64,000 nucleotides of DNA, from assembly GCA_021821195.1 (NCBI GenBank), contig JAKACT010000001.1:186001-250000 (forward strand), in the 5' to 3' direction. Under the pieces are notes generated by a model. The model searched no databases. It saw only the letters and a list, made by a program, of their open reading frames with translations, and was not told the origin of the DNA. Each line of letters starts with the position of its first letter. The first letter of the stretch is position 1. Of this stretch, positions 1-37,015 are shown in pieces. The stretch is from Pseudomonadota bacterium (GTDB lineage Bacteria; Pseudomonadota; Gammaproteobacteria; Xanthomonadales; Xanthomonadaceae). The position numbers and the translations under genes were made by a program.

Positions 1-865
1 TGACGTCCGGCAAGATCACCAGGAACTCCTCGCCACCCCAGCGCGCGATGCATTCGCTCGGCCTCAGCAGGCGCGCGCAGCTCGCGGCCACGGCCCGCAG
101 CACACCGTCGCCGGCGGGGTGGCCGTGGGTGTCGTTGATGGCCTTGAAGCGATCCAGGTCGAGCATGACCAGCCCGGCGCTGCCGCCCCGGGCCAGCACA
201 TCGCGAAGCACGCGCTCGCCGAACAAGCGGCTGTGCACCCCGGTAAGCGGGTCGCGATGCAACTGCACCTCGATGCCGTCGCGCTCGGAGGCCAGCCGCC
301 GGATCTTCCCCGTGAGGCCGCGCTGCACGGGCAGCAGCACCACCAGCATGAGGCTGGCCGGCCCGAACGCCATGACCAGGTCCACCCCGCGCGGCGTCCC
401 CAGTTCCCCGGGGTGGGCCAGCAGGTAGACCAGCACCGGCGACGCCACCAGCAGCCAGCCGAACGCGGCGGCGACGTACGCGCGCCGCCCCGGCACGAAG
501 AGCATGAGCATCGCCATGAAGACGGCGAACAGCGACGATATCGGCGGCAGCGTGTCGATCAGCCGCAGGCCCGGCGACAGGCTTGCCTGCACCGTGTAGA
601 ACCACGCGGGCGCCATCAGCGCGAGGGCCGACAGGCACAGGGCGATGCGCGTGATGACACCCACCCATGCGGGCCGCAGCCACAGCGCGCAGAGGAGACC
701 GGCAAACAGCGCGCTGCCCACGGGCGGAATCACCCGATCCATCGGGCGATGGACCGGGCCGAGCCAGTGCATCGCCGTCGCGCAAACGCCCGCCAGCAAG
801 GCCAGCGAGAGCATCACCATCATGGCGACGCGGAGGTACTGGTCGTCTCGATCCTGCACGGGCAT
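1..865 (-). CDS. Membrane diguanylate cyclase, 3' end missing
   Basis: Predicted to make the second messenger c-di-GMP from two GTP at the inner membrane. I translated it from the reverse strand. The start ATG (863-865) is the first after an in-frame TAG, and the frame is open to the window edge, so the C-terminus is cut off. About five or six hydrophobic helices fill residues 12-185, followed by a GGDEF domain with the entry motif RDPLTGVHSR, the DLDRFKAINDTHGH substrate loop and GGEEF. The residues five places before GGEEF are RPSE, so the usual RxxD product-inhibition site is altered. The sensor region matches no family I recognise. It stands alone upstream of the RAYT. Catalytic activity is likely but the input signal is unknown. 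Confidence 0.9.
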   Translation of the reverse strand, partial: MPVQDRDDQYLRVAMMVMLSLALLAGVCATAMHWLGPVHRPMDRVIPPVGSALFAGLLCALWLRPAWVGVITRIALCLSALALMAPAWFYTVQASLSPGLRLIDTLPPISSLFAVFMAMLMLFVPGRRAYVAAAFGWLLVASPVLVYLLAHPGELGTPRGVDLVMAFGPASLMLVVLLPVQRGLTGKIRRLASERDGIEVQLHRDPLTGVHSRLFGERVLRDVLARGGSAGLVMLDLDRFKAINDTHGHPAGDGVLRAVAASCARLLRPSECIARWGGEEFLVILPDV

Positions 866-908
866 TCGGGGCTATATGGGAGTGGGCAGTATAGGGAACG
901 GGGCAATA

Positions 909-926
909 GGGACGGAGGGAATTAAG
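909..926. repeat. Half REP element upstream of the RAYT
   Basis: The 18-base string gggacggagggaattaag here is repeated exactly at 1729-1746, downstream of the transposase, where it forms one arm of a perfect palindrome. The RAYT gene is therefore bracketed by copies of its probable substrate repeat. Only one arm is present at this site. Confidence 0.7.
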
Positions 927-1014
927 CGATCCCCTACCCGCCAACCAGCATCCCGCCGATGTCGGCCGATGTTGCAGCAGCGAAGACTGCAAGCGTCCCG
1001 CCAAGGCCAGCGCG

Positions 1015-1755
1015 ATGCCCCGCCAAGCCAGAATCGAAGTGCCCGGTATTCCCATGCATGTCACCCAGCGAGGGGTGAACCGATGCGCGATCTTCCTCGA
1101 TGATGAGGATCGTCACCATTATCGACGCCTCTTGCGCGAGGCCTGCACGAACCACGACGTCCTCATCCATGCCTACGTGCTGATGGACAACCACGTGCAT
1201 CTGCTGGTGCATGCCGGGCAGACGGGCGCCGTGTCCCGTGCCATGCGCGCCGTCGGCCAGGCCTATGTGCAGGCGTTCAACCAACGCCACGGACGCATCG
1301 GCACGCTCTGGCAAGGACGCTTCAAATCCAGCCTGGTCGATTCCGATGCCTACGCCCTTCGCGTGATCCGCTACATCGAACTCAACCCGGTGCGTGCGGC
1401 GATGGTCGACACGCCCGAGGCGCATCGCTGGTCAAGCGTGCACATGCACCTTGGCCTCAGGCCAGACACCCTGATGACCCCGCATCCGCTTTACCTCTCC
1501 CTTGGCGACACGCCCACCGCACGCGCCAACGCCTATCGCACCTGGCTCATGTCCGGGTCGGACGACGAAGAACTCGCCCGAATCCGTACGCACATGGCGC
1601 AGGAGAAGGCGCTAGGCAATCCTCGCTTCCAGGCCATGCTGGCCAAGACATTGAATCGTCCCGTCGACCTCAAACCCCGCGGCCGCCCAACTCTTTCAAA
1701 AGGAGCTCAAAAGGGGACAGCTCAAAAGGGGACGGAGGGAATTAAGTGCGCTTAA
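1015..1755 (+). CDS. REP-associated tyrosine transposase (RAYT, IS200-like Y1 family)
   Basis: Single-strand DNA transposase of the Y1/HUH superfamily. RAYTs are linked with mobilisation of short palindromic repeats and do not carry IS ends. The HUH motif is H60-V61-H62 in LMDNHVHLLV. Candidate catalytic tyrosines lie in GQAYVQAFNQ (Y84) and VIRYIELNPVRA (Y120), both diagnostic for the family. The start fits the conserved MPRQARIEVPG N-terminus. The C-terminus is odd: the last 15 or so residues (KGAQKGTAQKGTEG) are translated from the flanking repeats and the stop codon sits inside the palindrome, so the original end has probably been overwritten. It lies between a diguanylate cyclase and a second RAYT remnant. 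Activity is uncertain because of the altered tail. Confidence 0.9.
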   Translation: MPRQARIEVPGIPMHVTQRGVNRCAIFLDDEDRHHYRRLLREACTNHDVLIHAYVLMDNHVHLLVHAGQTGAVSRAMRAVGQAYVQAFNQRHGRIGTLWQGRFKSSLVDSDAYALRVIRYIELNPVRAAMVDTPEAHRWSSVHMHLGLRPDTLMTPHPLYLSLGDTPTARANAYRTWLMSGSDDEELARIRTHMAQEKALGNPRFQAMLAKTLNRPVDLKPRGRPTLSKGAQKGTAQKGTEGIKCA

Positions 1756-1819
1756 TTCCCTCCGTCCCCTTTTGCTCGCAGAGGGAATTAAGTGCGCTTA
1801 ATTCCCTCCGTCCCCTTTT
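1724..1819. repeat. Tandem REP palindromes next to the RAYT
   Basis: A perfect inverted repeat has 23-base arms at 1724-1746 and 1751-1773 with a tgcg loop. A second copy follows with a shortened left arm (1781-1792), the same tgcg loop and a full right arm (1797-1819). The two share a 46-base tandem unit (1735-1780 and 1781-1826). Partial units (ctcaaaagggga) precede them inside the 3' end of the RAYT frame. These are typical RAYT-associated REP elements. As RNA they would also form very stable hairpins after the RAYT stop. Confidence 0.85.
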
Positions 1820-1820
1820 G

Positions 1821-1950
1821 CTCGGCCTCTACCTGCAACAACAACGCGCCTACGGCCGCGACAACTTCCGCGCGATGGTCCAAGCCAAAACCCAACGGCT
1901 TGCCGGCGTGAGGCCCGCGCACCGACGGGCCAAGGCAAAATCAATCACTG
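1821..1950 (+). pseudogene. C-terminal remnant of a second RAYT
   Basis: This stretch encodes YLQQQRAYGRDNFRAMV followed by KTQRLAGVRPAHRR. That matches the usual C-terminal end of RAYT proteins, and it lines up with MAQEKALGNPRFQAML near the end of the intact neighbour. No N-terminal part or start codon is present. The fragment is joined directly to the REP palindromes on its left. It is probably what remains of a second copy, or the displaced original C-terminus of the neighbouring gene after repeat insertion. Confidence 0.6.
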
Positions 1951-1955
1951 AAGGG

Positions 1956-1979
1956 ATAAGTGAACCTGACCCCGTTTTT
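1956..1979. repeat. Short dispersed-repeat-like element
   Basis: The string aagtgaacctgaccccgttt, ending in a T run, resembles a second class of short repeat that I associate with RAYT-rich genomes. Only one copy is visible in this window, so repeat status rests on memory of the motif and not on the sequence here. Confidence 0.35.
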
Positions 1980-2000
1980 GGCGCGGCTTTTTGAAGGGTT

Positions 2001-2651
2001 TCAAAATAGATACGCCTCGCGCGTATAGATTGGATCCGTGAACTCCGCCCCTAATTCCCGCAAGCCATTCCGAACCCTGGCTGTAAGTCCCGTACCGGTT
2101 GGCGAATCGACCAATCGACGCCAGTTATCCGGATAGTTCTGACGAAGCACGAACAAGCCGAATGCAGTGGCATTCCACGCACGACGACAGCCAACCCTAA
2201 TCTGTGAATCATGTCCGAAGTGCACGTGTGCCAAAGGATGCGCACGATGGTCAAATCCGTTTGGATCGTAGTCGTAACGAATTGGGACGACGTGTTCTCG
2301 TCTTTCTGCGGTTAGAAGATGCAATTCGTATCGCTCACTAAAATCAGACGAATATGCATCAGATCCAGAAATCCCTTGCTCAGCCGCGAACACGTGGCGC
2401 GGCTTAACGTCAAGCGGGCACGGGACATACGAATATGACGGCCGTTCGCCTTCTACGAAGACCAGAAGCGAATGGTCTTCGAGCCGGTAGGAGTACCAAC
2501 CCTTCTCGTTCAGCTTTCGCCACTGCTCGAGGTAGGACAGGGGCCGGACCTCGACGGGTTCTGGCGGATCGTTCGGCCCAACTTCGGCGCGCAAACCGCT
2601 TTCCCGAAAATAGCCGGACAGGCGTGCTGCTTGTGGCGAAAGCGCGACCAC
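2001..2651 (-). CDS. DUF2290-like protein paired with a helicase
   Basis: A 216-residue soluble protein without signal peptide or membrane segments. The stretch HPLAHVHFGHDSQIRVGCRR with the following FVLRQNYPDNW (about residues 137-176) resembles the conserved core of DUF2290 proteins, whose function is unknown to me. The GTG start shares its G with the TAG stop of the upstream helicase gene (one-base overlap), so the two are almost certainly co-transcribed and translationally coupled. Base composition is clearly lower in GC than the flanking genes and codon use is less biased, which points to acquisition by transfer. No nuclease motif is obvious to me. The family call is tentative; the pairing with the helicase is firm. 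Confidence 0.6.
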   Translation of the reverse strand: MVALSPQAARLSGYFRESGLRAEVGPNDPPEPVEVRPLSYLEQWRKLNEKGWYSYRLEDHSLLVFVEGERPSYSYVPCPLDVKPRHVFAAEQGISGSDAYSSDFSERYELHLLTAERREHVVPIRYDYDPNGFDHRAHPLAHVHFGHDSQIRVGCRRAWNATAFGLFVLRQNYPDNWRRLVDSPTGTGLTARVRNGLRELGAEFTDPIYTREAYLF

Positions 2652-4774
2652 TATTTTCTCTTGGCACCGGTCCGTTTAGCGCGACGTTTTTTTACTTGAG
2701 CGATTTCTTCCAAGCGTTTCCTGAGGAAGCTCTCGTACTCTTCAGCGCTAAGTGCATCTTCGAGTTCGTCAAGTGACCTTTCAACATCAGCGACTCGATC
2801 GTCACGCAAGTCGCGACGCATCACGCTTAACTCATCCGGCCCCGGGTAGGTGAAGCGCAACTTCGGCGAATTTGCCAGTGCGTTCTCGATTTCGCTGGCG
2901 AATGAGGCCGCTGGCGCGCCCATCCCACTCACGCGCAGCCATCCTTTCGCCCTCGTCATTGCCGTAAAAGCGATGTTGCGATTTCGAATAGCTTTTCGCG
3001 CAAATACAGCATCGATGCCAACAATAAAGACGACGAAACCTTCGTTCCCCTTCGCCTTATAAACGGTAGAGAAGGTGACCTTCCCAGCTTCACTAAAGTC
3101 GCGAACTCCGTAAGAATCGGACTGCAGATCATTAACCTCGATTCCCGCTTTTCTCAGGCTTGAGCTAATCGCAGAGAAGTAGACCTTCGAATTGAGATCG
3201 TCCGCAGATATAACCAAGATATCCTCAGGTAGCAGCCCTTCCTTCTGGACATCATTGATGATCTGCGTCGATATCCAATCGACCTCTGAGGGCAGATCCT
3301 CGAAGCTCTTTGCTACAACAATTTCTCGCCGGTCGACGTTTGTTGAAATCGAGCTAGGTGAGTTCTCCGCGGGTCGCCGAATCACTACCGCTTCACCTTG
3401 CTGTAGAGGACCTCGCTCCACCACGTAACCCAAGTCTTCCCAGTGGTCTTCGTCCTCTGGGAGCTGGACGATCTTCGGGCCGTAGAGCCCAAGGCCGATC
3501 GCGTGCGCACACACCAGGACTTCGAGAGGATTTCGATAGCACTTATGAAGTACTACATCTTCCTCAAACTGTGCTAATGGCTCGCCGTATTCATCCACGC
3601 CGAAGATTGTCGCGACACTTGGCGTCTCTACTTGAAATATTGTTTGCAGCTCGTCATAAGCGAGCACGATTCGCCCATTCTTGGCGAGCTTTAGCGCCAA
3701 CTGCATAAAACTAGGGGCAAAATCCTGCCCCTCATCTACAAAAATGTAGTCGTAGGTGGGTTTGATTTCTTGGCGTCCGAGCAAGTCCTTACAGGCGAAA
3801 TCAAAGGCGGCCTTCGACGAACTTGAGGCCTCACCGTAAGTCATTGGTCTAACGCCAAGAGTTCGACAAGCGTTGTAGTAGAGTCCGGGTGTCGTTTGGC
3901 CGCCCCAGGCATGCAGGACCTGCAGCTTTTCCCAATCCGGGTCACTCTCATCAAACTGCCGATAGAACCTTGTAATTAAGCGCTTTACATGCTGATAAAG
4001 GCTTTTTGTGTAAAACGTGTACGCAATACGAGCCTCGGGATCACGCAGATGCGTTAGCGCCGCCTTCATCGCGAGCACGACTGTCTTGCCGGAGCCAGCA
4101 AGACCACGAATGCGCTGCGGGCCATTTAGCGGCGCTAAATATCCAAGCTTTTGGTCTTTGTCGAAGCGCCTTATTTCCGCTTCGAGCGCCGAAACAAGTG
4201 CAGCCTTAGAGTTAGAAGCGCGCCCTTTCAGATTTCGATCGCGCGGCTTCAGAAGGCCTTTGGCACCTTCTACGACCGAGGCAATCTCGCGGACCAGCTC
4301 GTCTGCCAATCCGACTGCCCGCTTCTCGCCAAAGAAATCGATTAGCGCGTCGGCACCCTGCAGTATTTCGATGTCTTCAAGTTCAACCTTCTCCGTCAAT
4401 TCGTCGCTCGTAAATACAGCAACAGAAACTGGAAAGCGAAGATTGCCGAGACCTTTGACGAGAGCCTTCGACTTAACAAGCCGGGAGAATATCAGCGAAA
4501 AAGCGCGCTGAGCGGAAATCCCTGCCTCAGCGACGTCGTCTAATTCCGAAATAGATGTTGTGTTGAAGGGAGTTAGCAATACAACGCCATGATTGGCGGA
4601 AATAACTAACGCGCCAGCAACGACGACCTCTTCATCTTCGCGGTAGAGAGGAAAACCTGCATAGACGATGGCCGCCTGCAACCCGAGTTCGTCTGCGTGA
4701 ACCTCGAGAGTATTTAGCAGAGCCAGCGTTGCTGGATCGGAGCGAAATAGCTGCTTCCGGTAGTTGCATTCCAT
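2651..4774 (-). CDS. Superfamily I DNA/RNA helicase (UvrD/Rep-like)
   Basis: ATP-dependent helicase or translocase of 707 residues. Motif I is GLAGSGKT (224-231), motif II is DEGQD (347-351), motif III is LAYDELQTIF (371-380), motif IV is KCYRNP (411-416), and a motif VI-like NRNIAFTAMTRAKG lies near residue 620. About 200 residues precede the ATPase core and match nothing I know. The C-terminus is charged and lysine-rich (QVKKRRAKR). It resembles the stand-alone SF1 helicases of COG3972 more than UvrD itself, which is longer and differently organised. It is AT-richer than its surroundings and forms a two-gene unit with the DUF2290-like gene. A role in phage or plasmid defence is inference from composition and context only. 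Confidence 0.85.
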   Translation of the reverse strand: MECNYRKQLFRSDPATLALLNTLEVHADELGLQAAIVYAGFPLYREDEEVVVAGALVISANHGVVLLTPFNTTSISELDDVAEAGISAQRAFSLIFSRLVKSKALVKGLGNLRFPVSVAVFTSDELTEKVELEDIEILQGADALIDFFGEKRAVGLADELVREIASVVEGAKGLLKPRDRNLKGRASNSKAALVSALEAEIRRFDKDQKLGYLAPLNGPQRIRGLAGSGKTVVLAMKAALTHLRDPEARIAYTFYTKSLYQHVKRLITRFYRQFDESDPDWEKLQVLHAWGGQTTPGLYYNACRTLGVRPMTYGEASSSSKAAFDFACKDLLGRQEIKPTYDYIFVDEGQDFAPSFMQLALKLAKNGRIVLAYDELQTIFQVETPSVATIFGVDEYGEPLAQFEEDVVLHKCYRNPLEVLVCAHAIGLGLYGPKIVQLPEDEDHWEDLGYVVERGPLQQGEAVVIRRPAENSPSSISTNVDRREIVVAKSFEDLPSEVDWISTQIINDVQKEGLLPEDILVISADDLNSKVYFSAISSSLRKAGIEVNDLQSDSYGVRDFSEAGKVTFSTVYKAKGNEGFVVFIVGIDAVFARKAIRNRNIAFTAMTRAKGWLRVSGMGAPAASFASEIENALANSPKLRFTYPGPDELSVMRRDLRDDRVADVERSLDELEDALSAEEYESFLRKRLEEIAQVKKRRAKRTGAKRK

Positions 4775-4815
4775 CAGTCAGAATTCCATTTATTGTCGAT
4801 TCGTAGCGCGCTTAG

Positions 4816-7800
4816 TCACATATTCCGCCTGTACTCCCCACCCACATCGTACAACGCATGCGAGATCTGCCCGAGGCTGTGAGTTTTTACCGCCTCCATG
4901 AGGGAAGCGAACACATTCCGCCGCTCCCGCGCCGCCGCCTGTAGCGGCTTCAACCCCTCGCCCGCAAACCCGTTGCGGTTGCCCTGGTACCCCGCCACGT
5001 TCGCAATCTGCTGCCCCTTCTCCTCTTCCGTGGATCGGATCAGCTCGATCTCGGTGACGATATCGCCGCCGTGTTCCTTGGGCAGGAAAGTGTTGACACC
5101 CACCAGCGGCAGGCTGCCGTCGTGCTTCTTGTGCTCGTAGTACAGGCTTTCTTCCTGGATCTTGCCGCGCTGGTACATGGTGTCCATGGCGCCGAGCACG
5201 CCGCCGCGCTCGCTGATGGCCTCGAACTCCTTGTAGACCGCCTCTTCCACGATGTCGGTCAGCTTGTCGACGATGAAGCTGCCCTGCCACGGGTTCTCGC
5301 AGAAGTTCAGCCCCAGCTCCTTGTTGATGATCATCTGGATGGCCACGGCGCGGCGCACGCTTTCTTCGGTGGGCGTGGTGATGGCTTCGTCGTAGGCGTT
5401 GGTGTGCAGGCTGTTGCAGTTGTCGAACAGCGCGTACAGGGCCTGCAGCGTGGTGCGGATGTCGTTGAACTGGATCTCCTGCGCGTGCAGGGAGCGGCCG
5501 CTGGTCTGGATGTGGTACTTCATCATCTGGCTGCGCGCGGACGCGCCGTAGCGCTCGCGCATGGCGCGGGCCCAGATGCGGCGGGCCACGCGGCCGATGA
5601 CGGTGTACTCCGGGTCCATGCCGTTGCTGAAGAAGAAGCTCAGGTTGGGCGCGAAGTCGTCGATCTTCATCCCGCGCGCCAGGTAGTACTCCACGATGGT
5701 GAAGCCGTTGGACAGGGTGAAGGCCAGCTGGCTGATCGGGTTCGCCCCGGCTTCGGCGATGTGGTAGCCGGAGATGGACACCGAGTAGAAGTTGCGGACG
5801 GCGTGGTCCACGAAGTACTGCTGGATGTCGCCCATCATGCGCAGGGCGAACTCGGTGCTGAAGATGCAGGTGTTCTGCGCCTGGTCCTCCTTCAGGATGT
5901 CGGCCTGCACGGTGCCGCGCACGGTCTTCAGCGTCTGCGCCTTGATGCGGGCGTAGGTCTCGGCGTCCACCAGCTGGTCGCCGGACACGCCCAGCAGGCC
6001 CAGGCCCAGCCCGTTGTTGCCCTGCGGCAGCTCGCCTTCGTAGCGCGGGCGTCGTCTTTTACCAGACGCGTCGCCTTCGAACAGGGCGTCGATCTTCTGT
6101 TGCGCCTCTGCCCAGCGCGCCGGGTCGGCCTTCAGGTATTGCTCCACCTGCTGGTCGATGGCGGTGTTCATGAACATCGCCAGGATGATCGGCGCCGGGC
6201 CGTTGATGGTCATCGACACGCTGGTGGTGGGCGCGCACAGGTCGAAGCCGGAGTACAGCTTCTTCATGTCGTCCAGCGTGGGCACGTTGACGCCGGAGTT
6301 GCCGATCTTGCCGTAGATGTCCGGGCGCGGCGCCGGGTCTTCGCCGTACAGGGTCACGCTGTCGAAGGCGGTGGACAGGCGCGCGGCCGGCTGGCCCAGG
6401 CTGAGGTAGTGGAAGCGGCGGTTGGTGCGCTCCGGCGTGCCCTCGCCCGCGAACATGCGGATGGGGTCCTCGCCGGTACGGCGGTACGGGTACACGCCGC
6501 CGGTGTAGGGGTAGTAGCCCGGCAGGTTCTCCTTCTGCAGGAACACCAGCAGCTCGCCCCAGGCCTTGTAGGTGGGCGCGGCGATCTTGGGGATCTGCTG
6601 GTGGCTGAGCGACTCGCGGTAGTTCTCCACCCGGATGGTCTTGTCGCGCACCTGGTATTCGTTCACCGGATCAACGATCGACTTCAGGCGCGCCGGCCAG
6701 TCGCGCAGCAGGCGCAGGGCGTCGGAATCCAGCGACTGGATGGCGTCGTTGTAGCGCTGACGCAGGGTCTTCAGGCTGCGGTCGTCGCCCTCGGTGAGGA
6801 CTTCGGCCGGGTACAGGTCCAGCGCCTTGGGCAGCGCGGCATCGCCCAGCTCCTTCAGCGCGTCCCACAGGGACTGCGCGCGGTCGGCGATCTCCGCCTG
6901 CGATTCGATGCGGGCGTTGATGCTGCGGCCCTGCTCGGCGATCTCGGCCAGGTAACGCACGCGGTTCCCGGGGATGAGGACGGTGGCGCGGGGTTCGCGC
7001 AGCGAAATGGTGTCAGGGACAACTTTCGCGAAGAGGGTGCTGCCGGTGCGATCGGTGCCGGGAAATTGTCCCTGACACCATTTCGCGTCGAGCAGGCGGC
7101 ACAGGTTGGCGAACATCCAGTTCAGGCCGGGGTCGTTGAACTGGCTCGCAATCGTCGGATAGACCGGCACGTCCTCATCCCTGGTCTGGAACGCCACGCG
7201 GTTGCGCTTCCATTGCTTGCGCACGTCGCGCAGGGCGTCTTCGGCGCCGCGCTTGTCGAACTTGTTGAGGACGACGAGTTCGGCGTAGTCCAGCATGTCG
7301 ATCTTTTCCAGCTGGCTGGGCGCGCCGAAGTCGCTGGTCATCACGTACATGGGGAAATCGACCAGGTCGACGATCTCCGAATCGCTCTGGCCGATGCCGG
7401 CGGTTTCGACGATGACCAGGTCATAGCCCAGCGACTTCAGGAAGGCGATGCAGTCCTGCAGCACCACGTTGGTGGCCATGTGCTGGCGGCGGGTGGCCAT
7501 GGAACGCATGAACACGCGCGGGCTGCGCAGCGTGTTCATGCGGATGCGGTCGCCCAGCAGCGCGCCGCCGGTGCGGCGGCGGGTGGGGTCCACGCTGACC
7601 ACGGCGATGTGCATGTCGGGAAAGTTGGCCAGGAAGCGGTTCAGCAGCTCGTCGGTGACCGACGACTTGCCGGCGCCGCCGGTGCCGGTGATGCCCACCA
7701 CGGGGGTCTTGCCGCCGGCCAGCTGCCATTCCTTGCGCAGGTGGGCCAGCGTGCCTTCGTCCAGCGCCTGCTCCTCGATGGCGGAGAGCATGCGGCCGAT

Positions 7801-32134: not shown

Positions 32135-33922
32135 TCAGCGCGGCATCGCCAGGTGTCCAGGCGCCAACGGCTTGCCCATCCGCGGCACGGTGGCCACCAC
32201 CGCATCGGCCGGCAGCGCGGCCTTGCCGTCCAGGTACGCATCAACGCGGTCCAGTGCCTCGTACACATACGGCAGCAGCGGCAGGTAGGCCGCCGCCATG
32301 TGCGGCAGCACCAGGAAACCGTCGAAGTGCTGGGCGTTGCGCACCTGCCAGTAACGCACGTCGCGGCCGGCCGCCCTGGCCATCGCCACGTACGGCGCGC
32401 TGGAAAAGGCCTGTGGCACCAGCCCGTCGTCGGTGCCATGGATGACAACCACCGGCAGGCCGGCACGGGGTGCGCTGGCGCGGGTCCGGGCGATGCCGTC
32501 GCGCACGCGCCGGGCATCCGCGCCGTCGTCCGTCCACAGCGCGCGCAGGCACTGCAGGCCGGTCAGGCCCAGGTCCGGGAGTGGCTGCGGATCGACGATG
32601 CCCACGCCGGCGCCCGGCGGAATGCCGCTGCCGTCGGCCCACCACGCGGCGCGCTCGGCATCAGTTCCCGCGCGCGGCTGCATGTCCGCACCCAGCACCG
32701 CATAGCGATACCCGCAGGGATGGGCGTCATGCGCGTAGCGGCCATAGGCGGAGGCATAGCCCACTGCCACCGCACGCCACAGGTCGAAGCCCACGCTGAT
32801 CGCCCCGGCGCGCAGTGCCGCATCGGTCCAGCCGGCGGCACGCAGTTTCGCCAGCGCGTCCTTCTGCAACGCGTCCGCGGTCGCGCCGGACAGCACACCG
32901 CGCGTCGCCAGCGCCGCGCACTTCGCCTCCAGTCCCGGCATCGCCGGAATACCCAGCTGCGGCAGCGCACAGGGCATCAGCAACGCGGCTTCGGTGGTGT
33001 AGTCGTACAGGCTGCGCGCACCCGCGCCTTCGGCCAGCACGTTGGGCTCGCCGGCCACCACCGCGTCCAGCCACGGCTCGCCGTCTTCCGCCGCGCGCAG
33101 CACCGCGCCGCCGCCGTTGGAGATGCCCACCGCGATGACGCGGGTGTTTTCAAAGGTGAAGGGCGCCTGCTGCGGCAGCTGCGCATCCAGCGTGGCCAGC
33201 GCGAACTGCGCGGCCTGCTTGACGTGGCGGCCCCAGTCGGCCTCCGGGTTGTCCTGCGAATGCGCGTGCTTGAACGCCACGCCGCTGCCACTGGCCGGCT
33301 GCGGAACAAATGCCAACGCCGCATCCGCAGATGCCAGCGTACCGTCGGCACCGACGCCCTGCCCCGCATCGAGATCGAAATAGTCGGTGCCCGCGCCCTT
33401 GTCGGTATAGGCCACCGCGCAGCCGCGCGGCAGCCCCCACGCGCCGGCAACCGCAATCGCGCCGTAGATGCCGCGCGACCCCGAGGACGCGGCCACCACC
33501 ACGCAGCGCTTGCCGGCATCGAAGGCGTCCGGCAGCTGCACCAGCACGCGATGCGGCTGGGTCGCCTCGGCGAGTTTGGCGAACGCACTGAACTCGCGGC
33601 CCGGCACGGCGGCGAGGCTGCCGTAGACGCTGCCATAGCCGCCGCCCGGCGAAAGATCCGCGATCCCGCGCCAGTTGCTCCACAGCGCGCGTTTGCGCAG
33701 CTCGCCCGGGGCCGGATGCGCGGCGTCGGCGAAGCCCGGCGGCAGCATCGACTGCAGGCCGGCAAGCCCCAGCCCGCCGGTAAGCAAGTCGTCCTGCCCG
33801 CGATGGTCGGTGGCACGCGGCTGGCTGAACATGGCGGCGGTTTCCTTCGCGGCGGGCAGGCTGGCGCAGCCGGCCATCAGGGCGACGGTCGCGGCGAGGG
33901 CGCAATGGCGGAGTGTGTTCAT
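32135..33922 (-). CDS. Lipoprotein D-3-hydroxybutyrate oligomer hydrolase
   Basis: Splits 3-hydroxybutyrate oligomers from PHB breakdown into monomers. The 595-residue alpha/beta-hydrolase-like protein has a lipoprotein signal with lipobox LMAGC near residue 18, so it is membrane-anchored and outside the cytoplasm. The probable nucleophile is the serine of VGISNGGGAVL, with HGTDDGLVP and AQHFDGF as candidate acid and histidine segments. The overall architecture matches the 3HB-oligomer hydrolase family (PF10605 as I recall it). I chose the ATG at 33922, the only start that gives a signal sequence. It is divergent from bdhA across 109 bases, a natural pairing because the monomer product is the substrate of BdhA. 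Confidence 0.88.
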   Translation of the reverse strand: MNTLRHCALAATVALMAGCASLPAAKETAAMFSQPRATDHRGQDDLLTGGLGLAGLQSMLPPGFADAAHPAPGELRKRALWSNWRGIADLSPGGGYGSVYGSLAAVPGREFSAFAKLAEATQPHRVLVQLPDAFDAGKRCVVVAASSGSRGIYGAIAVAGAWGLPRGCAVAYTDKGAGTDYFDLDAGQGVGADGTLASADAALAFVPQPASGSGVAFKHAHSQDNPEADWGRHVKQAAQFALATLDAQLPQQAPFTFENTRVIAVGISNGGGAVLRAAEDGEPWLDAVVAGEPNVLAEGAGARSLYDYTTEAALLMPCALPQLGIPAMPGLEAKCAALATRGVLSGATADALQKDALAKLRAAGWTDAALRAGAISVGFDLWRAVAVGYASAYGRYAHDAHPCGYRYAVLGADMQPRAGTDAERAAWWADGSGIPPGAGVGIVDPQPLPDLGLTGLQCLRALWTDDGADARRVRDGIARTRASAPRAGLPVVVIHGTDDGLVPQAFSSAPYVAMARAAGRDVRYWQVRNAQHFDGFLVLPHMAAAYLPLLPYVYEALDRVDAYLDGKAALPADAVVATVPRMGKPLAPGHLAMPR

Positions 33923-34031
33923 GCCGCGACCATAGCTGCTGCCGCGGCGCGTCGCATCGTACTTTCGTACCAGCAGGCGGCGGCGCGTTCCTGCTAGCGT
34001 ATGCGCCTCCCCATCGTCGTAGAGCCGCACC

Positions 34032-34850: not shown

Positions 34851-34878
34851 CGTCATTCCCGCGAAAGCGGCAATGACG
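34851..34878. repeat. Single REP-like palindrome
   Basis: Arms cgtcattcccgc and gcggcaatgacg (one mismatch) flank a gaaa loop. It resembles a widespread intergenic repeat of GC-rich proteobacteria. It contains the ATG at 34873, which argues against using that codon as the start of the next gene. Confidence 0.6.
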
Positions 34879-34890
34879 AGTAAAGCACCC

Positions 34891-35556
34891 ATGCCTTCCC
34901 TGCTGATCGCCGACGACCACCCGCTGTTCCGCGCCGCGCTGCGGCAGGCCGCGCGCGACGCGCTGGGCGACGTGCACCTGTTCGAAGCCGGCGCGCTGGA
35001 CCAGGTGCTGGCGCTTCTGGACGCACAGCCGCAGGTCGACCTGGTGCTGCTGGACCTGCACATGCCGGGCAACCACGGGCTGGCCGGGCTGGCGGCGATC
35101 CGCGCGCAGTTCCCGGGCGTGGCGGTGATCGTGGTCTCGGCGAACGACGACCCGCGGGTGGTGCGCCGCGCGCTGGACCACGGTGCCGCCGGCTACCTGC
35201 CCAAGAGCGCCGGCCTCGACGAACTGCGCGACGCCATCCGCAGCGTACTGGCCTGCGAGACCTGGTTGCCGCCGGCGCTGCGCGCGAGCGTGGCGCGGGC
35301 ACAGAGCGCGCCGCAGGACGCGGATCTTGCCGCGCGCCTGGCCAGCCTGTCGCCGCAGCAGTTCCGGGTGCTGGCGCTGGTCGCCGAGGGCCTGCTCAAC
35401 AAGCAGATCGCCGACCGCCTGGACGTGCAGGAGCGGACGGTGAAGGCGCACCTGACCGCCATCTTCGAGCGCCTAGGCGTGCGCAACCGGACCCAGGCCA
35501 GCGTGGTGCTGCGAGAGCTGGAGCTATCGGATCCCGCGCGGCAGATCGAGACCTGA
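34891..35556 (+). CDS. LuxR/NarL-family response regulator
   Basis: Two-component DNA-binding regulator of 221 residues. The receiver domain (1-120) has the acidic pair in ADDH and the phospho-acceptor aspartate in VLLDLHMPG. The C-terminal LuxR helix-turn-helix includes LSPQQFRVLALVAEG and QIADRLDVQERTVKAHLTAIF. I chose the ATG at 34891 because the upstream ATG at 34873 falls in a palindromic repeat. No histidine kinase is adjacent. Its position after bdhA hints at carbon-storage control, but the target is unknown. Confidence 0.88.
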   Translation: MPSLLIADDHPLFRAALRQAARDALGDVHLFEAGALDQVLALLDAQPQVDLVLLDLHMPGNHGLAGLAAIRAQFPGVAVIVVSANDDPRVVRRALDHGAAGYLPKSAGLDELRDAIRSVLACETWLPPALRASVARAQSAPQDADLAARLASLSPQQFRVLALVAEGLLNKQIADRLDVQERTVKAHLTAIFERLGVRNRTQASVVLRELELSDPARQIET

Positions 35557-35603
35557 CCCGCACCACGGGCGGCAACCGCATGGCTATTTTTTAGCCAGCA
35601 TCA

Positions 35604-35960
35604 TTGACAGCCGCACTCCGCCTCGCGCTCGGACGGTTATCCACACCGTTATACGATTTCCATCCACAGCGGCTGTGGACAACGCGCTTGCCGGAACGCG
35701 CCGGCCGCCGAAAAATATCTGGCGATTTTTTCACCACGCCTGTTGACAGCCGCGCCACGCCTGTTGCGCAGGTGGTTATCCACACTCTTATACGAGTTCC
35801 ATCCACAAGCGCTGTGGACAACCGCCACCGCGCCGGCCCCCGCAACGGCAACGGGGTGGCGAAATATTCGCCACCCCGTTGAAAGCATTGCCACGGCTTG
35901 CGATCAGCCGCTTATCCACATCGTTATGCGACCACCGATCCACAGCGATTGTGGACAACC
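35604..35960. repeat. Three tandem repeats of about 137 bp carrying DnaA boxes
   Basis: Each unit has TTATCCACA (35637-35645, 35776-35784, 35912-35920), then TTATACGA or TTATGCGA, then a TCCACA half-site, then inverted TTGTCCACA (35674-35682, 35813-35821, 35950-35958 on the minus strand). The first box matches the DnaA consensus exactly; the inverted one has one mismatch. Spacing between units is 139 and 136 bases, and box-to-inverted-box spacing is 37, 37 and 38. Units 1 and 2 also share ttgacagccgc and an AT-rich tract. There is no coding evidence. Candidates are a DnaA titration or reactivation locus, or an origin-like element. Confidence 0.85.
35849..35881. repeat. Perfect 15-bp hairpin within the DnaA-box region
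   Basis: Arms 35849-35863 and 35867-35881 pair perfectly around ata. There is no T run, so a terminator is unlikely. It occupies the AT-rich junction between the second and third repeat units. Confidence 0.7.
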
Positions 35961-35968
35961 GCTGCGAC

Positions 35969-37015
35969 TCACATCGTCGCAGCGTCGATCACGAAGCGGT
36001 ACTTGACGTCGCTCCTGAGCATCCGCTCGTAGGCCGCGTCGATGTCCTGCGCACGCACCATCTCGATGTCGGCGACGATGCCGTGCTCGGCGCAGAAGTC
36101 CAGCATCTCCTGGGTCTCGGCAATGCCGCCGATCAGCGAGCCGGCGATCGCCCGACGCTTGAAGATCAGGTTGCCGATGTTCGGCGAGGGGTGCGCATGC
36201 TCCGGCACCCCCACCAGGCACAGGGTGCCGTCACGCTTGAGCAGAGAGGAGAACGCGTCGAGATCGTGGCTGGCCGCCACGGTATCCAGGATGAAATCGA
36301 AGCTGTTGCGCTGCGCCTTCATCTGCGCGGCATCGCGCGAGATCACCACCTCGTCGGCACCCAGTCCGTGTGCTTCGGCGCGCTTGGATTCGCTGGTGGT
36401 GAACGCCACCACGCGCGCGCCCATCGCGTGCGCGATCTTGATGCCCATGTGGCCCAGCCCGCCGATGCCGACGATGCCGACCTTCTTGCCAGGCCCGACG
36501 TTCCAGTGCCGCAGCGGGGAATAGGTGGTGATGCCGGCGCACAGCAGCGGCGCCACTGCCGCCAACTGTTCCTTCGGGTGGTGCACCCGCAGCACGAAGT
36601 CCTGGTCGACCACGATGCGCTGCGAATAACCGCCCAGCGTATGGCCCGGCGCGTCCGCGGTGGGGCCGTTGTAGGTGCCGACCATGCCCTGCTCGCAGTA
36701 CTGCTCCAGCCCCTCGCCGCAGGCGGCGCAATGCCGGCAGCTGCCCACCATGCAGCCCACGCCGACGGTATCGCCCACCTTGAAGCCGGAGACTTCGGCG
36801 CCAACCGCGCTGACATGGCCGACGATCTCGTGCCCCGGCACGCAGGGATACAGCGTGCCCGCCCACTCCGCACGCACCGTATGCAGGTCGGAATGGCAGA
36901 TGCCGCAGTAGGCGATTTCGATCTGCACGTCGCGCGGCCCCGGCGCGCGACGCTCGATGTCCATGGCGACGATGGGTTTGTCGGCGGCGTGGGCGCCCCA
37001 GGCTTTGATGGTCAT
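35969..37015 (-). CDS. Zinc-dependent NAD(P) alcohol/aldehyde dehydrogenase
   Basis: Medium-chain dehydrogenase of the cinnamyl-alcohol/YahK type that reduces aldehydes or oxidises primary alcohols. The 348-residue protein has catalytic zinc ligands in CGICHSD and PGHEIVG, and a structural zinc site in GSCRHCAACGEGLEQYC. The cofactor loop is GIGGLGHMGIKIAH, and the serine-rich TTSESKRAEA after it suggests NADPH preference. Its stop lies 9 bases from the DnaA-box repeats. It may share a transcript with the Nudix gene 73 bases upstream. The physiological substrate is unknown. Confidence 0.9.
   Translation of the reverse strand: MTIKAWGAHAADKPIVAMDIERRAPGPRDVQIEIAYCGICHSDLHTVRAEWAGTLYPCVPGHEIVGHVSAVGAEVSGFKVGDTVGVGCMVGSCRHCAACGEGLEQYCEQGMVGTYNGPTADAPGHTLGGYSQRIVVDQDFVLRVHHPKEQLAAVAPLLCAGITTYSPLRHWNVGPGKKVGIVGIGGLGHMGIKIAHAMGARVVAFTTSESKRAEAHGLGADEVVISRDAAQMKAQRNSFDFILDTVAASHDLDAFSSLLKRDGTLCLVGVPEHAHPSPNIGNLIFKRRAIAGSLIGGIAETQEMLDFCAEHGIVADIEMVRAQDIDAAYERMLRSDVKYRFVIDAATM

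Follow-up and report, generated by a model that had tools for sequence, protein, structure and literature searches.

The E. coli DnaA-reactivating sequences (DARS), DARS1 upstream of uvrB and DARS2 upstream of mutH, have three core DnaA boxes with identical spacing, box I being oriented opposite to boxes II and III, and a head-to-head AAA+ contact is described as stimulating ADP release (PMC5742627, PMC8682772). DARS1 is active in vitro without additional factors (PMC5742627), and DARS2 is an intergenic element with accessory nucleoid-protein sites at set distances. According to one study, conservation of the DARS2 core is specific to gammaproteobacteria related to E. coli (PMC4245941); a review widens this range to E. 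coli-proximal beta- or gammaproteobacteria (PMC5742627). By title or abstract, no report on elements of the kind described here was found for Xanthomonadaceae, Pseudomonas, Caulobacter, Vibrio, Legionella or betaproteobacteria in the literature searched (mostly open-access; only the top results of longer lists). Several DnaA boxes are also clustered at datA of E. coli, away from oriC itself and in its neighbourhood, which requires IHF, and at ori-proximal loci of B. subtilis, which serve in titration only (PMC5010248).

For reference, the loci DARS1, DARS2, datA and oriC were taken from E. coli MG1655. DARS1 consists of TTATCCACT, 5 bp, inverted TTATCCACA, 3 bp and inverted TAATACACA, and DARS2 of TTATTCACC, 5 bp, inverted CTATCCACA, 3 bp and inverted TTCTTCACA. 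When these four stretches were scanned, DARS1 and DARS2 alone had head-to-head pairs with a 5-bp gap (N5) in which both boxes matched at least 8 of 9 positions. Elsewhere in the E. coli stretches the N5 pairs were weaker (6-9 of 9); one of them, at datA (7/9 and 8/9), overlaps a stronger head-to-head pair whose gap is 3. No head-to-head N5 pair was present at oriC itself in the stretch scanned.

The locus described here lies in a stretch of 64,000 nucleotides from a member of the Xanthomonadaceae (the window). It is interpreted as three DARS-type modules in tandem, situated on the terminus side of the chromosome, a reading that we favour by a modest margin and for which there are no binding or nucleotide-exchange data.

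Layout of the array

The intergenic region 35557-35968 separates two convergent genes, one for a LuxR-type response regulator (34873-35556, + strand) and one for a zinc-dependent alcohol dehydrogenase (35969-37015, - strand), both with their 3' ends toward the array. It contains three DnaA-box units of ~137 bp, spaced by 139 and 136 bp. The order of elements in a unit is a palindrome (TGGYSA-W5-TSRCCA), ~40 bp, box A, 3 bp, site X, 2, 2 or 3 bp (units 1, 2 and 3), box B, 5 bp and the inverted box C. Each unit contains four DnaA sites in fixed register, X being the weak one. The consensus of A is TTATCCACA, a perfect DnaA box, that of X is TTATRCGAN, that of B NNATCCACA and that of C inverted TTGTCCACA.

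In unit 1 the accessory palindrome (TGGCTATTTTTTAGCCA, without assigned strand, Fis-like and fitting GNNYANNNNNTRNNC) is located at 35581-35597. It is followed by box A at 35637-35645 (+, TTATCCACA), the weak DnaA-like site X at 35649-35657 (+, TTATACGAT; 3 bp after A and 2 bp before B), box B at 35660-35668 (+, CCATCCACA), which resembles DARS box II, and box C at 35674-35682 (-, TTGTCCACA), which resembles DARS box I and stands head-to-head with B across the 5-bp gap. The corresponding elements of unit 2 are the palindrome at 35720-35736 (TGGCGATTTTTTCACCA, no strand), box A at 35776-35784 (+, TTATCCACA), site X at 35788-35796 (+, TTATACGAG), box B at 35799-35807 (+, CCATCCACA) and box C at 35813-35821 (-, TTGTCCACA). 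Those of unit 3 are the palindrome at 35857-35873 (TGGCGAAATATTCGCCA, no strand), which forms the centre of a 15-bp inverted repeat (35849-35881), box A at 35912-35920 (+, TTATCCACA), site X at 35924-35932 (+, TTATGCGAC; here 3 bp before B), box B at 35936-35944 (+, CGATCCACA) and box C at 35950-35958 (-, TTGTCCACA). The palindrome is exactly 79 bp upstream of box B in every window unit; that of unit 1 departs from the consensus at the S positions.

The head-to-head pair with a 5-bp gap, which is the box I/II geometry of DARS1 and DARS2, is present in 3/3 window units. The A-X and X-B gaps, of 2 or 3 bp, are those at which E. coli DnaA favours tandem boxes in vivo (PMC11317965). Site X, in tandem with B at 2, 2 and 3 bp, matches TTWTNCACA at only ~6.2 of 9 positions on average (21 units of the genus). 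Without the leading TT in box B, and with X degenerate, the units have at best a weak equivalent of box III, which counts against DARS. With DARS1 they share the I-N5-II-N3-III type of core to the extent that the weak site X can stand for box III; DARS1 is not repeated and has three boxes only. In common with DARS2 they have the 5-bp head-to-head pair, a site in tandem with box B (the weak X), a putative accessory site at a set distance and an intergenic location. They differ from DARS2 in having a fourth box (A), in their weaker third site at a gap of 2-3 bp, in the Fis-like site at -79, in the lack of a recurrent IHF match, in being repeated three times in tandem and, in relatives, in their terminus-side location. 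No full palindrome was present at the -79 position of DARS1 or DARS2; within 300 bp upstream of box II, DARS2 had one match to the Fis criterion used here, at -137 (the published Fis sites were not mapped).

A preliminary description, made from the sequence alone, had reported six near-consensus boxes in 322 bp, a constant spacing of 37, 37 and 38, and an arrangement very unlikely to occur by chance. The six boxes were confirmed (A starts at 35637, 35776 and 35912, +; C starts at 35674, 35813 and 35950, -), and so was the spacing, which applies to box starts with a TCCACA half-site in between. The statement on chance held for clustering and geometry, not for the total number of boxes. With at most one mismatch, 7 DnaA boxes were found in the 64-kb window, six in the array and one other; shuffled windows had a mean of 2.4, and 2 of 100 shuffles reached 7, so it is clustering and geometry that carry weight. 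First-order Markov simulation of the window (60 runs) never gave more than 2 boxes per 322 bp, nor did it produce the unit pattern. The perfect 15-bp hairpin described between units (35849-35881) held in part: it corresponds to the unit 3 palindrome with its arms extended, and there are three AT-centred palindromes, one per unit. The limits given for the locus, 35604-35960, miss the first palindrome, which starts at 35581, and the weak fourth site X had been overlooked in every unit.

The three window units look like duplicates of each other and are hence not mutually independent. Conservation across genomes is the stronger argument.

A TTGACAGCC-like conserved motif follows the palindrome, ~57 to 30 bp before box B (e.g. 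35604-35614), in many units of the genus and of genus g11. An RNA element was also considered for the array and rejected; the Rfam search of the window yielded nothing besides a tRNA.

Conservation and a related module upstream of priA

The pattern TCCACA-N0-14-TGTGGA was found at 68 places in 25 genomes of the genus, 50 of them with N5 (hand tally); the other gaps were N6 (6), N14 (3), N2, N3 and N9 (2 each) and N1, N7 and N12 (1 each). The 50 N5 places comprised 25 at locus 1, that is the window array as placed after the orthologous regulator gene, 24 of the priA type described below and 1 elsewhere. Locus 1, with 1 to 3 units, followed the regulator orthologue in 11 genomes. In 12 genomes of the genus no array was found after this gene, one of them (G010) having a single near-box; G003 and G015 were left out of the scoring. 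The absence is also given as 12 of 21 genomes scored, a set that includes the genome of the window. Conservation among 26 units of the genus extended to the palindrome and box A, to the last seven bases of B and to the greater part of X and C; the gap bases varied. Elsewhere in the genus, two DARS-like units with variant boxes lie 136 bp apart in L299 (G005:C13:31795-31947), on a contig other than that of the regulator gene, and the regulator orthologue of G009 (L061 6461-7125) aligns in three pieces, perhaps owing to a frameshift or a sequencing error.

The longer pattern TTATCCACA-N10-24-TCCACA-N5-TGTGGA was present in 106 of 296 genomes of the family, representing 16 of 54 genera; a reversed control pattern gave 0. 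Although 10 to 24 bases were allowed, the gap between A and TCCACA was 17 in 44 of 45 units (30 family loci) and 18 in the remaining one. Eleven of the 30 loci (ten in genus g11, one in g39) have flanking ORFs in common with the window, with the regulator orthologue in 8 and the window's NUDIX gene in 10; they represent the chromosomal place of the window array in other genera. At other loci the neighbours were unrelated (ten proteins, six stretches: prephenate dehydrogenase/ABC exporter, DnaJ/SDR, DnaJ/peptidase M3 and others). By a crude gene caller the element was between convergent genes in 10 of 13 stretches, one of the ten being a doubtful call; two stretches (one locus of genus g49) were not of this kind and one was undecided. 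Many family genomes had more than one unit, and several had units at more than one locus. Genus g49 has a second terminus-side element, which in L270 (G311:C1:3093333) adjoins a CDP-alcohol phosphatidyltransferase gene; its 43 bases, gap bases included, are identical in eight genomes of that genus.

The position of the palindrome was conserved as well. The distance from its start to box B was 79 or 80 bp in 26/26 locus-1 units of the genus and 77-80 bp in 43/45 family units; that from its start to box II was 78 or 79 bp in 24/24 priA-type units. In 95 of 132 sites the arms were not fully RNA-pairable, and we therefore read the palindrome as a site for a protein, not as a hairpin. Its G, C, A, T and AT-centre positions agree with the Fis consensus GNNYANNNNNTRNNC (PMC4585315, PMC8682772). 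These positions were part of the criteria by which sites were picked; the Y and R positions are independent. The latter fitted in 29/39 and 33/39 of the units from other bacteria and were mostly unmet in the genus (7/26 and 4/26). The window palindromes fit the Fis consensus at 6/6 (unit 1) and 4/6 (units 2 and 3) positions. A fis gene scored above the NCBIfam cut-off in 10/10 genomes searched, including that of the window (C6:587307-587552). Fis is the best candidate for the binding protein; its binding is inferred and not proven. For IHF, no recurrent site of at least 8/9 was found between -138 and -26 in the 26 locus-1 units, and in these and the 45 family units there was at most 1 match at any offset.

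The palindrome was also considered as a unique marker of the units and rejected: its pattern occurred at 37 places in the 25 genomes (hand tally), 24 at known units, 4 with a head-to-head pair at 78-80 bp and 9 without. The nine palindromes lacking a DnaA pair at the expected distance are in G003 (C5, C8, C15, C20), G021 (C1, C2, C6), G010 (C1) and G017 (C1) (L289-L292, L294-L298).

The second locus is upstream of priA. A priA match was found beside the pair in 20 of 22 loci of this type (20 genomes of the genus, the window's own included); of the two exceptions, L221 is a different place in G008, and L048 has the same core without a priA match within 3 kb. The L221 pair (position 2645; G008:C4:55144) is a 5-bp head-to-head DnaA pair that is not at the regulator, and no priA match was detected in 5 kb around it. 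In the genome of the window the priA locus (C6:415129-415510, about 7020-7515 of L055) has two tandem units of ~360 bp with perfect head-to-head DnaA pairs, a third box and a Fis-like palindrome; an IHF-like site is present in most units of this type in the genus. Judged by its layout, this element is likely to be of the DARS2 type. The priA locus has a III-N3-II-N5-I core, the palindrome shared with locus 1 and the IHF match. The tandem 9-mer at exactly 3 bp agrees with the box consensus at 6-8 of 9 positions in 24/24 units (at least 7 in 18), and a match to the IHF consensus (8/9) is located 110-111 bp before box II in 20/24. The design is that of the window unit without box A.

Named genomes were searched with the perfect pair TTATCCACA-N5-TGTGGATAA, which yielded at least 119 stretches. 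By title, most were from Gamma- and Betaproteobacteria; Actinobacteria, Firmicutes, other groups and Xanthomonadales contributed some. A tandem third box (at least 7/9) at exactly 3 bp was present in 89 of 236 flanks of 118 pairs, while no other gap from 0 to 45 had more than 12. Of 87 units with a third box, 45 had the palindrome at -79 and 11 had it at -78; the highest count for any other offset was 13, at -20, which overlaps the third box. An IHF match at -109 to -111 was present in 39. Seventeen of the 119 stretches have the pair upstream of priA, at a distance of up to ~450 bp; in L105 it was at the 3' end of priA, and in L089 its relation to priA remained undecided. The priA-type element thus looks like an ancient DARS2-like module, with the reservation that about a third of the third-box units had no palindrome by the score used.

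Chromosomal position

The genome of the window consists of 13 contigs, and the terminus-side placement rests on relatives only. Of the 18 genomes in which dnaA was looked up, 14 with dnaA and the elements on one large contig were used; G281, G254, G259 and G198 were left out, dnaA and the elements not being on one closed contig. Since a dif-like pattern was found in only 12 of 25 genomes of the genus, positions are given as fractions of the half-chromosome from dnaA, the antipode standing in for the terminus.

In these 14 genomes the 35 units were placed at 71.1-93.7% of the distance between dnaA and the antipode, far from dnaA in 14/14. In genus g49 (four genomes) there was one locus on each arm. 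Twenty-nine of the 35 units (18 of 24 loci, which are not independent) faced against the replication fork, and 6 units (6 of 24 loci) with it. Of the two units of G009, an assembly in two contigs, only one was entered; the listed completeness of G324 is 57%, and loci within one genus are not independent. The priA locus was 9.8-13.0% from dnaA in 7/7 genomes of the genus measured. The array meets the DARS trait of an intergenic location between oriC and terminus that is kept in relatives (14/14 genomes). It does not meet the datA traits (IHF site among the DnaA boxes, ori-proximal position) or the linkage to dnaA at the ori pole that marks oriC.

A proposed DARS-type array and its rivals

The preliminary description had left three possibilities: a DARS- or datA-like locus, an alternative origin, or control of neighbouring genes by DnaA. 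The DARS-like option is well supported by the 5-bp head-to-head pair, by a geometry fixed in 16/54 genera and by the accessory site at constant distance; the other two are disfavoured, as discussed below. Its statement that no dnaA is nearby was correct, dnaA being on contig C6 and the window on C4. Its own refuting observation, the same repeat at many unrelated intergenic sites, was looked for and not met. The genome of the window has 5 exact TCCACA-N5-TGTGGA pairs, 3 in the array and 2 upstream of priA. A mobile or REP-type repeat was rejected on the same count, the pairs being at two places only.

The proposed mechanism starts from what is shown, namely the sites, their spacings and conservation, the position in relatives and the fis gene. 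ADP-DnaA would bind A, X and B in tandem, and C head-to-head with B across the 5-bp gap. The head-to-head AAA+ contact would expel ADP, and apo-DnaA would leave and reload with the more abundant ATP; DnaA binding and nucleotide exchange are both inferred. A nucleoid protein, most likely Fis, would assist complex formation from the palindrome 79 bp away, again by inference. The array would be copied late in the replication round, so that its dose would double shortly before the next initiation and ATP-DnaA would rise. A role of the array as a timing element for chromosome replication is on balance the better-supported view, the timing effect itself being inferred. The genome of the window also has a second, weak Bac_DnaA match, which is probably hda.

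Further points against the DARS reading are the lack of a recurrent IHF match, the poor fit of the Fis Y/R positions in the genus, the lack of a -79 palindrome at E. coli DARS1/2 and the patchy presence at the regulator in the genus. In E. coli, DARS2 works less well when moved near terC, and transcription through DARS is harmful (PMC5010248); the window array, by comparison, is placed between convergent genes. The array is laid out like DARS, but membership rests on an activity for which there are no data, and the DARS2-type IHF feature is lacking. The data point to a DARS core accompanied by Fis-like and IHF-like sites in bacteria clearly beyond the relatives of E. coli, plus a new terminus-side version, activity being inferred in both cases.

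The main rival, which remains possible, is a DnaA titration or inactivation array, similar to datA or to the B. subtilis clusters, whose twelve sites hold DnaA or promote ATP hydrolysis without nucleotide exchange. In its favour, many tandem DnaA sites at 2-3-bp gaps are well suited to co-operative binding, and datA too has a tandem 3-bp pair and the weaker head-to-head N5 pair. However, the constant feature of the units is a strong 5-bp head-to-head pair, whereas datA combines a weak N5 pair with a strong head-to-head pair whose gap is 3. Moreover, datA needs an IHF site, for which units of the array type have no recurrent match, and datA and the B. subtilis clusters are near oriC and lose their function at terC (PMC5010248), whereas the array is terminus-side in relatives.

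It is less likely that the array has a role in the terminus region unrelated to the DnaA nucleotide, marking or organising the terminus domain or fork convergence through DnaA and a nucleoid protein. The location at 71-94% of the arm in 14/14 genomes, with one locus per arm in four genomes of one genus, and the orientation of 29/35 units against the fork speak for this. Against it are the module of the same design without box A at 10-13% from dnaA, upstream of priA, and the 6/24 loci that face with the fork.

Control of the neighbouring genes by DnaA is very unlikely: DnaA is a known transcription regulator (PMC11317965), but the array is past the 3' ends of both neighbours, no promoter-like match was found in 35400-36100, and the neighbours were unrelated at the six other loci typed. 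Equally improbable is that the hairpins are transcription terminators between convergent genes and the DnaA boxes incidental. The unit 3 palindrome does fold strongly (-31.7 kcal/mol) and there is one terminator-like match on the - strand, but the arms are mostly not fully pairable in RNA, as noted above, and the fixed distance to the DnaA boxes, at priA too, would be left unexplained. An alternative or relict replication origin, suggested by DnaA boxes with AT-rich tracts, is all but excluded by the location far from dnaA in relatives, by the DnaA boxes that flank dnaA on C6 and by the many genomes with more than one unit, several at more than one locus.

Should the DARS reading hold, the regeneration of ATP-DnaA through DNA elements would be ancient, and a link between the end of one replication round and the next initiation would become testable on a 400-bp array that can be removed or moved. 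The defined unit pattern makes such elements annotatable in many genomes. A bolder version, which we consider rather less probable than its converse, is that Xanthomonadaceae combine an ancient DARS2-like element at priA, near oriC, with a second class of DnaA-recharging elements composed of four DnaA sites and a palindrome, in terminus-side arrays of 1-3 units (on both arms in one genus). Doubling of the array would then tie the near-completion of a round to the licensing of the next, and DARS-type control would be general in Gamma- and Betaproteobacteria.

Two other features of the window were recorded. A gene for 3-hydroxybutyrate-oligomer hydrolase is located near the array, at 32135-33988. 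Positions 1-6000 have a GC content of 0.56-0.59 (4-kb frames), compared with roughly 0.67-0.72 across most of the window, and are possibly acquired DNA.
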